Source of the DNA: Methanoculleus sp.
Lineage (GTDB): Archaea > Halobacteriota > Methanomicrobia > Methanomicrobiales > Methanoculleaceae
Assembly (NCBI RefSeq): GCF_020696975.1
Contig: NZ_JAJGBK010000009.1
Location: forward strand, 1 to 51,317
Direction of reading: 5' to 3'
Length of the DNA: 51,317 nucleotides
Below the pieces are notes generated by a model. The model saw nothing but the letters and a program-made list of their open reading frames with translations. It did not search any database and was not told where the DNA came from. A program made the translations under genes and the position numbers. Of the stretch, positions 10,281 through 16,005 are shown piece after piece (within the stretch, counting starts at the first letter, position 1; every line of letters begins with the position of its first letter).

Positions 10281-10535
10281 TCACGCCCCCGGCCCACATG
10301 CAGCACTCTTCCCGGCAAGAATATCCCGAAGCCGCTCCCTCCCAACAGGCTCCGGAATTCTCCTGCCCTCTTCGCTGGCGGCCTCAAGCCAGACGGAGAC
10401 GGCAACCTTCACCTCGCGGAGCGCTTCCTCCTCGGTCTCGCCGAAGGCAGAGCACCCCGGAAGTTCCGGGACCACAGCGATGAATCCCTCGTCCTCATCG
10501 CTGTAGATTATCTCGATTGCATATCTATGTGGCAT
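10281..10535 (-). CDS. hicB: HicB-family antitoxin
   Basis: An 84-residue protein with the HicB N-terminal fold: YAIEIIYSDEDEGFIAVVPELPGC, then GETEEEALREVKVAVSVWLE. It binds and inhibits the HicA RNase. I chose ATG 10535 because GGAGG lies six nt before it and it overlaps the hicA stop by 11 nt, implying coupling; ATG 10541 and a longer frame from 10565 are alternatives. No clear C-terminal HTH or RHH DNA-binding domain follows the HicB core, so autorepression may need another factor. Confidence 0.85.
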   Translation of the reverse strand: MPHRYAIEIIYSDEDEGFIAVVPELPGCSAFGETEEEALREVKVAVSVWLEAASEEGRRIPEPVGRERLRDILAGKSAACGPGA

Positions 10536-10782
10536 CCTCATCCTCCAGAAAATTATAGTCCTCAATCACTTTAAGCAGTTGACGTACTTGATAGGGTTTT
10601 GCTTTCCCGCCTACGCTCTGGAAGTTCAGGAGCTCCGCAACCCCTTGCCGCGCATAAACCCTGTGACTCCCCTTCCCGCCCCTGAAACGGAACCCGAATG
10701 CCTCTGCTGCACGGCAGAGGTCTTCGAATCGCACATTTTTCACGTTCCGCTTCAAGTTTTCGTAGACCTGCCTTCGCTCCAT
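10525..10782 (-). CDS. hicA: HicA-family mRNA interferase toxin
   Basis: An 85-residue small double-stranded-RNA-binding-like RNase. The core reads FEDLCRAAEAFGFRFRGGKG, with the catalytic histidine H40 in GSHRVY. It precedes hicB with an 11-nt overlap, the usual hicA-hicB order. The first about 14 residues are longer than in many HicA proteins, so a later start is possible, though no internal ATG fits. The catalytic histidine is present, so the toxin looks functional. Confidence 0.85.
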   Translation of the reverse strand: MERRQVYENLKRNVKNVRFEDLCRAAEAFGFRFRGGKGSHRVYARQGVAELLNFQSVGGKAKPYQVRQLLKVIEDYNFLEDEDAT

Positions 10783-10984: not shown

Positions 10985-12601
10985 TCAGTTCCCCGGCACC
11001 ATCCGGCCGAGGTCCTCCTCGACCGTCGTGATCCCCTTGATCCCGAAGTTCTCGACGAGCACTTTCAGGATCCCGGGCGAGACGAAGGCCGGGAGGCGGG
11101 GGCCGAGGGTGATATCCCTGACACCGAGCGAGAGGAGGCTTAAGAGGACGAGTACCGCCTTCTGCTCATACCAGGCGATGTTGTAGGATATCGGGAGTTC
11201 GTTGATCCCGACGCCGAAAGCTTCCGCGAGGGCTTTTGCGATGACCACCAGGGAGTAGCAGTCGTTGCACTGGCCGGCGTCGAGGACGCGGGGGATGCCG
11301 CCGATATCCCCGAGACCGAGGCTGTTATAGCGGTACTTCGCGCAGCCGGCGGTGAGGATGATCGTGTCTGCCGGGAGGGCCTCTGCAAACCGGGTGTAGT
11401 AGTCCCGTCCGTTGTGCCGGCCGTCGCAGCCCGCCATCACGACGAACCGCCTGATTGCGCCGGACTTCACCGCACCGACGACCGCATCCGCGATGGCGAG
11501 GACCGGGGCGTGGGCGCACCCGGTGATGAGGTCGCCGCGGGAGATGTCCTCTGGGGGCTCACAACGCTTGGCGTGCTCGATCAGGGCCGAGAATTCCTTC
11601 TTTCCGTCCGGCGAATCCTCGATATGCTTTAACCCCGGATACCCGACAAGCCCCGTGGTGTAGACCCGGTCGCGGTAGGACTCCTTCGGGGGGACGAGGC
11701 AGTTCGTGGTGATGAGGACCGGGCCGTTGAACCGCTCGAACTCCTCTCGCTGGAAGGGCCAGGAGCCGCCGTAGTTCCCGACGAGGTGGCCGTACTTCTT
11801 GAGCTCCGGGTAGGCATGCGCCGGGAGCATCTCTCCGTGGGTGTAGACGTCGACGCCCGCTCCGCGGGTCTGTTCGAGGAGGTCGGCGAGGTCCTTGAGG
11901 TCGTGGCCGGTGACGAGGATGCCCGGGCGCGTTCCCGCCGCGGTGCTGACAGTCGTGATCACCGGCGTCCCGTAAGACGCGGTGTTCGCCGTATCGAGGA
12001 GAGCAAGGGTCTTCACGCCGACCTCGCCGCATTTGAGCACGCAGCCGACCATCTCTTCGGCGGAGAGGTCCTGCAGTGTGGCGGCGAGGCCTTCCTGCAG
12101 AAACGCCATGACCCCTTCGTCCTCATAGCCGAGGACGGCAGCGTGGTGCGAGTAGGCTGCCACGCCTTTGAGCCCGTAGACGAGAAGCTCGCGGAGCGAC
12201 TGCAGGTCGGCATCCACGCTCTCCCGGGCGGCGGCGATCTCCTGTGCCTTTGCCGCGATCGCCGCGGGACTTGCCTGCACCCAGGTGCAGGCATCGGGCT
12301 CCGCGCTCCCGGCGGGCGGGAGAGCGTCGCGGAGGCGGACGGCCTCGCCGATCGCGTCGCGGAATCGTGCGGGATCGAAGTTCACGTTGGTCAGGGTGGC
12401 AAAGAGGCACCCCGCGATGAACCTCCCGACCTCCGGGTTTCCGCCGCCATTCTTCATCGCCGCGAGGTTCCGGACCGAGAGGCCCTTGAGGGTGTAGATC
12501 AGGACGTCCTGGAGCCCCGCAGTCTCCTCGTCCTTGCCGCAGACGCCGCGTACGGTGCAGCCGAGTCCCTTTGCCGTCTCTTCACACTGGTTGCAGAACA
12601 T
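10985..12601 (-). CDS. hcp: Hydroxylamine reductase / hybrid-cluster protein
   Basis: A 538-residue Hcp (prismane protein). The N-terminal proximal-cluster cysteines are C3, C6, C15 and C21 (C-x2-C-x8-C-x5-C). Hybrid-cluster ligands fall in segments such as [29 protein letters not shown] and AGQCNDCYS. It reduces hydroxylamine, and in bacteria nitric oxide or peroxide, and serves nitrosative/oxidative stress defence in strict anaerobes. Cytosolic. It is divergent from an HxlR regulator, with two palindromes in the 87-nt gap, suggesting regulated expression. ATG 12601 is preceded by GGAGTGA. Confidence 0.95.
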
Positions 12602-12618
12602 TCACACTTCACTCCATA

Positions 12619-12651
12619 GTATCTTTTTGATACAAAGTATCAATTAGATAC
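12619..12651. promoter_or_regulatory. Tandem palindromic operator between hcp and hxlR
   Basis: Two perfect inverted repeats of the form GTATC-N5-GATAC lie at 12619-12633 and 12637-12651. Their centres are 18 bp apart, and a GATAC-AAA-GTATC palindrome forms between them. The array ends next to the hxlR TATA box and lies 18 nt from the hcp start, so a bound regulator could control both genes. HxlR is the obvious candidate ligand; that is inference. Confidence 0.7.
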
Positions 12652-12654
12652 TCA

Positions 12655-12662
12655 GATATAAG
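12655..12662 (+). promoter_or_regulatory. TATA box of hxlR
   Basis: GATATAAG is centred about 30 nt before the hxlR ATG, giving a nearly leaderless transcript. It directly abuts the second palindrome, so binding there would block TBP/TFB or polymerase access. Confidence 0.6.
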
Positions 12663-12688
12663 TAGGAGGAGGTTTCTCTAATTATACC

Positions 12689-13048
12689 ATGCAGGACGAG
12701 TGTACGGTCAATCAGACCGTCAAGTACCTCGGGAAGAAGTGGATGCTCCTGATCATCCTCGAACTCTACAAAGGAGAGAACTACACCCGGCGGTTCACCG
12801 AGGTGAAGGAGCGGCTCCCGGGGATAACGGCAAAGGTCCTCTCCGCCCGGCTGAAGGAACTGGAGGAGGAAGGCCTCGTCGAGAAGAGGGTGGAGGTCGG
12901 GACCGTTCCCGTCAGAAGCGAGTACACGCTCACCGCAAGCGGGCTTGAGATGGTCGGGGTGATCAAGGATATCAAGCGGTGGGCGCTCAAGTGGAAGATC
13001 GAGAACCTCGCGTGCGGGGCGCAGGACTGCCGGAGGTGCGTGCTGTAA
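12689..13048 (+). CDS. HxlR-family winged-helix regulator with a cysteine-rich tail
   Basis: A 119-residue HxlR-type winged helix. YLGKKWMLLIILEL and ITAKVLSARLKELEEEGLVEKR form the HTH and wing. A cysteine at position 5 and a C-terminal C109-x4-C114-x2-C117 cluster are prominent. HxlR proteins are dimeric sensors of electrophiles or redox changes. The cysteines could bind a metal or iron-sulfur centre or form disulfides. Divergent placement from hcp suggests control of hcp in response to nitrosative or oxidative stress. Downstream it converges on top6A. Confidence 0.88.
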   Translation: MQDECTVNQTVKYLGKKWMLLIILELYKGENYTRRFTEVKERLPGITAKVLSARLKELEEEGLVEKRVEVGTVPVRSEYTLTASGLEMVGVIKDIKRWALKWKIENLACGAQDCRRCVL

Positions 13049-13121: not shown

Positions 13122-14210
13122 TCAGATAATTCCCATCTCCGAGAGCCGCGTCGGCAGGTACTCCTTCGTCACGAAGTCGAGCCCCCGGCTCGCGAACGCC
13201 TGCTGTTCCGACTTCAGCTTCATATCGAGCTGCAGGTTGATCTGGTTACGCCAGTAGTCGGTTGCAAACCTCGGATCGGTCAGTTCAGCCTTTAAGGCGT
13301 TGATGTCCTGCTCGGAGAGGTGGTCGGCGGGGAGGTTGTAGTCGGCGATATCGGAGGGCTGCACCCCGATGAACTGCGCCTGGGGGGTCGCCAGGAGTTC
13401 CGACATATGGGCGCTCTTGATCGAGCCGTAGGCGACGCTCGCGTAGATCCGGTAGGACCAGGGGTCGCCGTCGGTGAAGACCACGACAGGAAGGTTGAGC
13501 GAGTCGTTGAGCCTTCGTAGGACCCGCCGTGTCGAGCGGGCCGGCTGCCCCTTGAGGTGGACCAGGATCGCCCCGTAGTCTTCATCGAACCCGTTCTCCA
13601 TCAGACGGGCGTACATACCGCCGGTCTCGATGGCGATGACGAACTTCGCGTCGTGGTCGACGAACTCGAGGTTATCGACGTTGTTCGGGATGGGATAACC
13701 CGCCTCCCCGACGTCCTCCTGGCAGTGCATCTCTTTGACGCCCCGGCGGGTGGTCTCCCGGATCCGGAGAGGGCCGAAGATCGATGCGCCGTCCTCCTCC
13801 GGCCGGAGGTGGAACGCCTCTCGCTGCACCTCGGTGATGATCTCGAGATCCTCGATCAGGAGATTGCTCTCATCCTGGGCGGCGAACTTCCCCTTCTTCC
13901 AGCCCTCAGAGATGTAATACAACTCTCTCAAGGTCGACGACCGGTTCTCCACGAGTTGCTGCTTTAAGAACCAGATGACATAGGCCATCTTCAGGAGGTG
14001 CACCGCGCCTTTTTCAGTCGTCGCCGCCCGGGTGCTCTCCCGCTCGCCGTATTTCCAGACCTCGCTCTCGTCGTCGTATGCAATATTCTGTTTCGTCCGC
14101 GTCGGCAGCCGGATATAGGGCACGATGCCGTCCCGCATCTGGTCGTACCAGGTGCGGGCGATACCGACGAGCCGTTCCTTTGCCAGCGCATCCATCTCTT
14201 CCCTAGACAT
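13122..14210 (-). CDS. top6A: DNA topoisomerase VI subunit A
   Basis: A 362-residue Spo11-related DNA-cleaving subunit of topoisomerase VI. The winged-helix (CAP) domain carries the tyrosine pair 98-99 in RELYYISE, which includes the catalytic tyrosine. The Toprim domain has the conserved glutamate in [10 protein letters not shown] and the acids of [14 protein letters not shown]. With Top6B it relaxes and decatenates DNA in an ATP-dependent manner. Its start overlaps the top6B end by 8 nt. A T5 run about 40 nt past the stop may terminate the operon. Confidence 0.96.
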
Positions 14211-16005
14211 CGAGATCCACCACCACTTTCATGCCGTCCTCCACGCCGCGCAGATCAAGCGAACCGTCGCCCGAACCCGTGTAGGCGACCTGCCAGGCCG
14301 CGCCGGGAGCGAGCGTGCACCGCCAGACCTTGTTGTACTCCCCGCCGATATCGTCCACGAAGTCCGGCCGGGGCTCTGCATCCACCGCAGCGTCGCCGGA
14401 GAGGTTGTAGAGGACGAGGGTTACTTCCTTTGCCGTGTAGTTGTTCACGTCGATGCGGACCTTTCCGTCGCTCGTCCGCTTCTTCGCGACGACCTTTCGC
14501 ATGATCTTCCCCTCGATCGGGGAGGTATCCACCAGGGGAAGCTCCACGATCTCGCTCACTTTCATGGCAATCGCGGGGATGACCGAGCATATCGCACGGG
14601 CACGGTCGTCCTGCTGCTTTTTTTTGTCCCGGCGGGAGAGGTAGGTCTTGAGTTCCCGCCCGAGTTCCTGGAGGACGAGGACGACCTCCCGCTCGATCTC
14701 CGGGATCGAGGCGACCGCGTCCTTGCTCTCGCTCGTGAAGGGGACGTTCGTGGACGCCACATGGACCATGACGAGTGCCGGGCCCATGGGGAGGCCCTGC
14801 TGCGAGAGGCCGTAACTCTTCCAGTTCACCTGCGTGACACAGTTCGTGATCGCGCAGGCGCCCTGCTGGTAGAGGAGCGGGACACGGTTTGCGAACCGGA
14901 ATATCTGGGCGCTCCCTTCGGCGGGGATCTTGCCGCCGTAGCCTATCGCCGCCTCGATGATGAACGAGTGCCCCCCGTAGACCGCGCTCGGGCGGGTCCG
15001 GGCCTTGATGAAGTCGAGCTGAATCTCCTTCTCAAGCCCCTTGCAGATCAGGTCCTCCCCGATGGGGGAGAGGCACTGCTGCGCCGGCGGGGCCGGGACC
15101 TTCACGGCCTGCATGGCGTCGAGGAGGCTTTTCAATTCTTCGGATTCAAGTTTGTTCACCTTCCGGGTGGGCTTGAGGTTGGCGAGCGCGATCATCTCGT
15201 CCGCGGTCTTCTTGCCGACCCGGGAGAAACTGCCGATGAGGAACTCCTCAACGGTCCCGGTGCTCGCGGCCGCGATCCGCTTTAATGCCCCGAACTCGAT
15301 CCCGTGCGGGTGGGGGAGGATGGACTTCGGGCACGGCGGGACCTCGCCACTCACCCGCTCGAAGACAGTCACCTCGCCGTCGATATCAGCCGTTATCCGG
15401 GCGTGCGGGTTGACGATCGCGGTGAGGCGGAGGTAGTCCACCAGCCGCTTCTTTGCGGCGAGAGTGCTCTTGAACTGGATCTCGATCCGGGTGCCATGCG
15501 TCCGGTCCCAGTCGATCTCCTCGTGGCTGACGATCTCCGGGTCGTTCGTCTCGGTCTTGATCATCAACTCAAACTGGTGAGCCCTCGCCTTCGCCCCCGT
15601 CCGGGAGGTGACCCGCGCCGGGGTGCCGGTGGTGAGCTGAGCATAAAGCACCGCCGCCGATATGCCAATACCCTGCTGCCCGCGGCTCTGCCGGATCTGG
15701 TGGAACCGGGACCCGTAGAGGAGTTTCCCGAAGACCAGGGGGACGTTCTCCGGCACGATCCCGGGGCCGTTGTCCTCGACGGTTATACGGTAGACCTCGG
15801 CGTCGACTTTTTTGATGCCGACAAAGATATCGGGGAGGACTTCCGCCTCCTCGCAGGCGTCGAGCGCATTATCCACCGCCTCCTTGATCGTGGTGATGAT
15901 GCCCCGCGTCGGGGAGTCGAAGCCGAGCAGATGCTTGTTCTTCTCGAAGAACTCCGCGACGCTGATACTCCGCTGCTGTTTGGCGAGATCCTCAGCAAGC
16001 ACCAT
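14203..16005 (-). CDS. top6B: DNA topoisomerase VI subunit B
   Basis: A 600-residue GHKL ATPase subunit. The Bergerat fold motifs are clear: [21 protein letters not shown], and the lid loop [11 protein letters not shown]. The transducer domain and a C-terminal Ig-like extension follow. It dimerises on ATP binding and drives strand passage through Top6A. The start overlaps the hisS stop by 14 nt and the end overlaps top6A by 8 nt, so hisS-top6B-top6A is a coupled operon. Confidence 0.96.

Follow-up and report, generated by a model that had tools for sequence, protein, structure and literature searches.

A conserved array of three dyads between divergent hcp and hxlR genes in Methanoculleus, a probable target of its HxlR-family regulator

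Introduction

Divergent, autoregulated promoters are a known kind among regulators of the HxlR/DUF24 family, one of which, QsrR, binds GTATA-N5-TATAC. In bacteria, the hcp gene for the hybrid cluster protein is controlled by HcpR and FNR as well as by NsrR; these three belong to protein families different from HxlR, NsrR and HcpR being defined by a domain of the Rrf2 or Crp type. Methanogens possess MsvR, which also shows a divergent autoregulated layout, is defined by a V4R domain, is not an HxlR protein and has an operator sequence other than that of the array described below.

According to the accessible text of the structural report, HxlR of Bacillus subtilis is a positive regulator whose affinity for DNA is raised by the signal, and the oligonucleotide crystallised with it, 5'-CAGTATCCTCGAGGATACTG-3', contains GTATC-N6-GATAC (PMC7835342). 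For YodB, the site given as preferred in the consulted section is TACT-[7]-AGTA (PMC8063818), while QsrR is described as sensing through Cys5 (PMC6798810), and the MsvR summary presents a cysteine-modulated regulator of methanogens (PMC3729527). As for Hcp, the excerpt available to us reports that a methanogen of another order makes the protein constitutively without a notable source of NO, for which reason its function in methanogens has been questioned (PMC10210160).

Herein, we describe the 87-nt gap (12602–12688) that separates the divergent genes hcp and hxlR in Methanoculleus sp. The window, that is, the whole stretch of DNA analysed, is 51,317 nucleotides long.

Results

The gap and its three dyads

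The hcp product passes the equivalog cut-offs of both NF003658 (798 bits vs 367) and TIGR01703 (707 bits vs 361). Downstream of hcp, on the minus strand, we observed a gene for a HicA-type toxin (PF07927; 10525–10782), overlapped by a frame that looks HicB-like by eye (10281–10565; joint span 10281–10782). Downstream of hxlR, a minus-strand gene for DNA topoisomerase VI subunit A (NF003332) adjoins a 600-aa frame resembling subunit B by eye, both within 13122–16005. The features of the gap and the two genes flanking it are collected in Table 1.

Table 1. Features of the hcp/hxlR locus (positions in the window)
Feature	Position	Strand	Sequence or product	Reading
hcp	10985-12601	minus	hybrid cluster protein / hydroxylamine reductase, 538 aa	NF003658 (E 3.1e-240), TIGR01703, PF03063
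Shine-Dalgarno-like element	12612-12615	minus	GGAG	before hcp ATG; direct reading
O1	12619-12633		palindrome GTATC-TTTTT-GATAC	hcp-proximal candidate operator
O2	12637-12651		palindrome GTATC-AATTA-GATAC	candidate operator between O1 and TATA-like box
AT box	about 12656-12664		ATATAAGTA	TATA box of hxlR; putatively of hcp on the other strand
O3	12672-12687		GTTTC-TCTAAT-TATAC (N6)	third candidate operator, ends 1 bp before hxlR ATG
hxlR	12689-13048	plus	119-aa HxlR/DUF24 regulator	PF01638 (E 1.4e-23); C5 and tail C109-X4-C114-X2-C117

O1 and O2 are perfect 15-bp palindromes, their edges 3 bp and their centres 18 bp apart. The two inverted repeats noticed by the sequence-only reading are thus real, and the distance of 18 bp that it gave is the one from centre to centre; its picture of a two-site array, however, overlooked O3, which sits between the hxlR TATA box and ATG and is the best conserved of three sites. 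Read inwards, all six half-sites share the consensus GTWTC, the exception to GT(A/T)TC being the right half of O3, where the innermost letter is mostly A. Such a motif agrees with a trait of the HxlR/DUF24 family, dimer binding to a palindrome of about 15–16 bp.

One palindrome alone is weak evidence, since three with at most one mismatch were found in the window against 0.99 expected, and the genome contains further single palindromes of this quality. The O1+O2 pair pattern, by comparison, matched once in the window and not at all in 100 shuffles. When the genome was searched with R1, an array profile built from sequence only, the sole array found was that of hcp/hxlR, the second match being the reverse strand of the same array; a genome-wide regulon in this organism was accordingly rejected.

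We also aligned 64 promoters, chosen as hcp-adjacent and excluding five loci without the full layout (L107, L034, L119, L129 and L137). Information content per column reached 1.44 bits in the O1 half-sites vs 0.58 in five left-flank columns, 1.46 in the O2 half-sites vs 0.75 in the O2 spacer, and 1.77, the highest of the three dyads, in the O3 half-sites vs 0.61 in the O3 spacer. The O1 spacer stood at 1.30 bits because it is T-rich, and the TATA-like box at 1.51. In this alignment, GTTTC and ATAC of O3 are almost invariant, the element taking the form GTTTC-N6-TATAC/GATAC. The plus-strand CTCC that corresponds to the Shine-Dalgarno-like element of hcp was found again in many relatives.

The layout in Methanomicrobiales runs O1, 18 bp, O2, TATA-like box, O3, ATG. 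The centres of O2 and O3 lie 35.5 bp apart in most Methanomicrobiales and 33.5 bp apart, about 2 bp closer, in a Methanosarcinaceae-like family (f8). The fixed O1–O2 spacing of 17–18 bp shows constraint. Cooperative binding, which had been predicted from this geometry and may yet occur, does not follow from it: 18 bp corresponds to about 1.7 turns, so dimers on O1 and O2 would not lie on one face.

Conservation and loss of the array

The array is kept throughout Methanoculleus and, more loosely, in Methanomicrobiales, in Methanothrix (with one palindrome) and in Methanosarcinaceae-like genomes. With up to three mismatches allowed, the pair pattern was present in 19 of the 40 family genomes, in 18 of them upstream of hcp, so that the check proposed earlier, a search for the palindrome pair upstream of hcp in relatives, found it conserved. 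The reversed control pattern matched in 0/40 family genomes, while a match in G021 and an extra one in G003 are G+C-rich chance matches. Two family genomes bear the hxlR orthologue and no upstream pair match: G031 has lost one 18-bp unit and retains a single palindrome, and in G037 the copies are more degenerate.

We then scored each dyad out of 10 in 100 hxlR promoters, comprising 70 adjacent to hcp, 20 beside a gene for a NIR_SIR siroheme protein and 10 beside neither (Table 2).

Table 2. Promoters reaching the dyad scores
Promoter group	O3 >=8	O2 >=7	O2 >=8	O1 >=7
hcp-adjacent (n = 70)	69	69	58	62
NIR_SIR-adjacent (n = 20)	14	13		10
beside neither (n = 10)	5	9		1
base-shuffled	0.35%	8.6%	0.85%	1.1%

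Some of the failures in the NIR_SIR group (L152, L158, L161 and L162) arise partly because the start codon is set differently; the arrays are visible there. Chance, or the AT-richness of a core promoter alone, might explain a single palindrome, whose count in the window is near expectation. Against it stand the conservation of the array, the shuffles in which the pair never arose, and the rarity with which shuffled promoters reach the scores that most hcp-adjacent promoters attain; we regard this explanation as ruled out, with a probability close to nil.

R1 was replicated on named loci, matching the hxlR promoter in 78/80 overall and in 50/51 promoters new to the analysis. Methanothrix-type promoters lack O1, even where hcp is divergent (L119, L129 and L137), so that a second palindrome is dispensable. 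In hxlR promoters of the Methanocorpusculum type without hcp (L101, L103 and L118), there is one dyad and no O3. Taken together, these losses mark O2 as the constant core and O1 as an addition on the hcp side.

Alternatively, O1 and O2 might form a hairpin in the leader RNA of hcp, acting as an attenuator or riboregulator. The 54-nt minus strand does fold stably (−12.1 kcal/mol, z −3.4), as the two neighbouring palindromes pair with one another. Covariation, however, was no better than in shuffles, with 75.4% of cells paired vs 74.3% and the score reached by 74/500 shuffles; moreover, a stem pair is broken in up to 37/64 sequences while the half-site letters stay, and Methanothrix-type loci do without O1. 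We rejected the hairpin, stable yet without covariation, as very improbable.

In two genomes, the array and hcp appear to have deteriorated together. In G031, the 18-bp palindrome loss accompanies a frameshifted hcp. In G012 (L109, C1:869400-873300), a 1.4-kb element lies inside the O3 spacer and parts hcp and O1/O2 from hxlR; hcp is frameshifted here as well, and the element contains a 398-aa frame that we take to be TnpB-like. Such evidence suggests linked decay, the cases being two and an assembly error in hcp being possible.

Co-occurrence with hcp and arrays at other genes

The hxlR orthologue (E <1e-50) and hcp were found in the same 20 of the 40 family genomes, and R1 matches below E 1e-9 were confined to these 20. 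Among 28 genomes of the order without the orthologue, none had hcp, with a query that detects hcp in other genome sets, and none had an R1 match below E 0.01; both sets, 40 and 28, consist of phylogenetically non-independent genomes.

The tie to hcp can also be followed where the two genes are apart. Twenty-eight genomes were searched for both hcp and the array (G178 and G104 being left out), and in 15 of them an hcp unpaired with hxlR keeps an upstream R1 match (E <1e-3) in hcp orientation; in one of the 15, G249, hxlR lies close by with a dyad of its own. The other 13 comprise two with weak matches only (G294 and G337), one having hcp without an array (G190), three with hcp beside hxlR and seven without hcp. 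The array is missing from second hcp copies, which are of another type, in G343, G365, G371, G249, G342, G131, G098, G208, G347 and G381, and G286 shows a weak match at such a copy; some of the hcp genes without an array belong to hxlR-bearing genomes. In G347 and G381 (L262 and L266), two array-like stretches stand upstream of one hcp, one of the stretches having three consecutive dyads.

Where hcp stands alone, the elements run O3, TATA-like box, O2, 17/18 bp, O1, hcp ATG, and the box between O3 and O2 is kept at L176, L188, L197, L199, L200 and L178. From this position, the box may serve hcp also, with O2 and O1 between box and start. Conversely, hxlR genes without adjacent hcp mostly keep at least one dyad.

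One might ask whether another DNA-binding protein occupies the palindromes, hxlR merely adjoining them. This is improbable: the arrays track the hxlR orthologue through the 40 + 28 genomes, they are found at the promoter of hxlR itself where hcp is elsewhere, and their half-site is identical to that in the HxlR crystal oligonucleotide as given in the accessible text (PMC7835342). Control of both genes by HxlR through the palindromes, which had been claimed from the window alone, is well supported by conservation, by co-occurrence and by the arrays at hcp genes far from hxlR, and we think that HxlR very probably controls itself and hcp via this array.

The gene divergent from the hxlR orthologue in f8 genomes is not hcp but one for a small siroheme protein (NIR_SIR), whose closest model is the NirB domain TIGR02374, the score lying far under the cut-off. 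We noted this neighbour at L277 (G172), L276 (G400) and 13 further f8 loci, some genomes having two consecutive hxlR/NIR_SIR pairs. In G208, a gene for the catalytic subunit of Ni-CODH (TIGR01702) has an array (L260:2034-2089, E 2.2e-6) 42 bp upstream, with a Rieske protein on the opposite side. R1 matches above E 0.01 elsewhere in other genomes were treated as noise. Hcp, the siroheme reductase and CODH, the proteins encoded beside the arrays, have in common that they act on small inorganic ligands; nitrosative or sulfite stress would suit the first two.

The regulator

The HxlR winged helix is the one well-supported Pfam domain of the regulator (PF01638, 82.9 bits vs a cut-off of 20.8). Its Pfam matches include neither a Rrf2- or Crp-type domain, as in NsrR or HcpR, nor the V4R domain of the MsvR type, and its scores stay below the NCBIfam cut-offs for RrpA/RrpB (NF047364, 53.7 bits vs 175; NF047367, 43.2 vs 185). 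By sequence, the nearest solved relatives are YdzF, HxlR, YodB and QsrR. The AF2 model has a mean pLDDT of 88.5, with about 71 in the tail, and the best Foldseek match to it was YodB (5hs7, E 1.1e-6), followed by QsrR-DNA (4hqe), HypR and HxlR.

Four cysteines, C5, C109, C114 and C117, are present in 100/100 aligned orthologues of at least 45% identity. C5 provides the N-terminal cysteine before helix 1 that is typical of HxlR/DUF24 regulators, while the tail motif C-X4-C-X2-C was found in 0/13 paralogues. In a regulator from a strict anaerobe, an invariant set of four such residues suggests a metal or Fe-S site.

Discussion

Taken as a whole, our results point to an autoregulated divergent control region in which HxlR would act on three dyads, hold both genes low and release them upon a cysteine-sensed signal, a reading that we consider likely. 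In this scenario, the HxlR-family protein would bind as dimers to the three GTWTC dyads: to O1 and O2, with their N5 spacers, on the hcp side of the central TATA-like box, and to O3, with its N6 spacer, on the hxlR side and over the hxlR start site. Bound HxlR would most likely block TBP/TFB or polymerase in both directions, keeping expression of both genes low. C5, C109, C114 and C117, perhaps as a metal or Fe-S site, would then sense a redox or nitrosative signal that alters HxlR binding, and both genes would be released. The dyads and the extent to which they are conserved, the shared distribution of array, hxlR and hcp, and the four cysteines were observed, whereas binding of HxlR to O1–O3, repression, the shared box and the signal are inferred. 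That one TATA-like box is shared by both genes is uncertain, because on direct reading the BRE side of the box looks unfavourable for minus-strand hcp.

The sign of control is probably repression rather than activation, because O3 overlies the putative hxlR start and, on the other side, O1/O2 separate the hcp start from the central box. The reverse could also hold, given that B. subtilis HxlR is an activator: the same HxlR might use the same sites and activate hcp, as at hxlAB in B. subtilis, with O3 mediating negative autoregulation of hxlR only. The accessible text on B. subtilis HxlR, a positive regulator with signal-enhanced DNA affinity (PMC7835342), speaks for such activation, as does the place of O3 at lone hcp genes, upstream of the TATA-like box and thus suited to it. 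At these same genes, however, O1/O2 fall between the putative TATA box of hcp and its start codon, a place typical of repression, although it is a position relative to the start codon; on balance, activation, the main rival, seems unlikely.

Turning back to repression with release, both the targets (hcp, and NIR_SIR in Methanosarcinaceae-like genomes) and the invariant cysteines hint at a nitrosative or redox signal; a nitrosative one would be plausible, although the constitutive Hcp of a methanogen from another order (PMC10210160) speaks against it.

In the literature on HxlR or Hcp regulation in methanogens and archaea, we found no description of this regulator, subscription papers lying mostly outside the scope of the search. 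As far as that literature goes, the three-site bidirectional archaeal cassette, its link with hcp and the branch with four cysteines would be undescribed. The role of Hcp in methanogens being an open question, a co-inherited dedicated regulator whose operator is defined offers direct access to it: once whatever releases HxlR is found, the physiological signal for Hcp follows. Beyond that, the cassette offers a bidirectional promoter of small size from an archaeon, and the four cysteines, being invariant, single out what is probably a metal-sensing branch of HxlR proteins.

Among known systems, B. subtilis HxlR with its hxlAB promoter (PDB 7bzd, 7bze and 7bzg) is alike in the HxlR/DUF24 fold and the N-terminal cysteine, and the GTATC/GATAC half-sites of its crystal DNA, as given in the accessible text, equal those of the array. 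It differs, according to the same text, in sensing formaldehyde via Cys11-Lys13, in activating and in having a target other than hcp, and the parts of that report at hand mention no four-cysteine set for it (PMC7835342). The best fold match to the regulator is offered by the quinone- and thiol-stress repressors YodB and QsrR (PDB 5hs7-9, 4hqe and 4hqm), although the matched stretches end at about query residue 101, so that the cysteine tail lies outside them. The palindromic box of YodB, TACT-[7]-AGTA in the consulted section, has the same span as the array dyads (PMC8063818), whereas the regulons of these repressors are bacterial and consist of quinone and nitroreductases. With NsrR, the regulator shares the target gene, as NsrR controls hcp in bacteria (PMC10210160, in excerpt), and with MsvR, going by its summary, the likeness lies in being a cysteine-modulated regulator of methanogens (PMC3729527). 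It is tempting to suppose, although we would put this at somewhat below even chances, that we are dealing with a new archaeal class of HxlR proteins in which C5 and C-X4-C-X2-C would form a metal or Fe-S site sensing NO or related species, and in which a movable bidirectional three-operator cassette would control hcp in Methanomicrobiales and, in Methanosarcinaceae-like genomes, NIR_SIR and in one genome Ni-CODH; such a class would be the methanogen counterpart of NsrR/HcpR.
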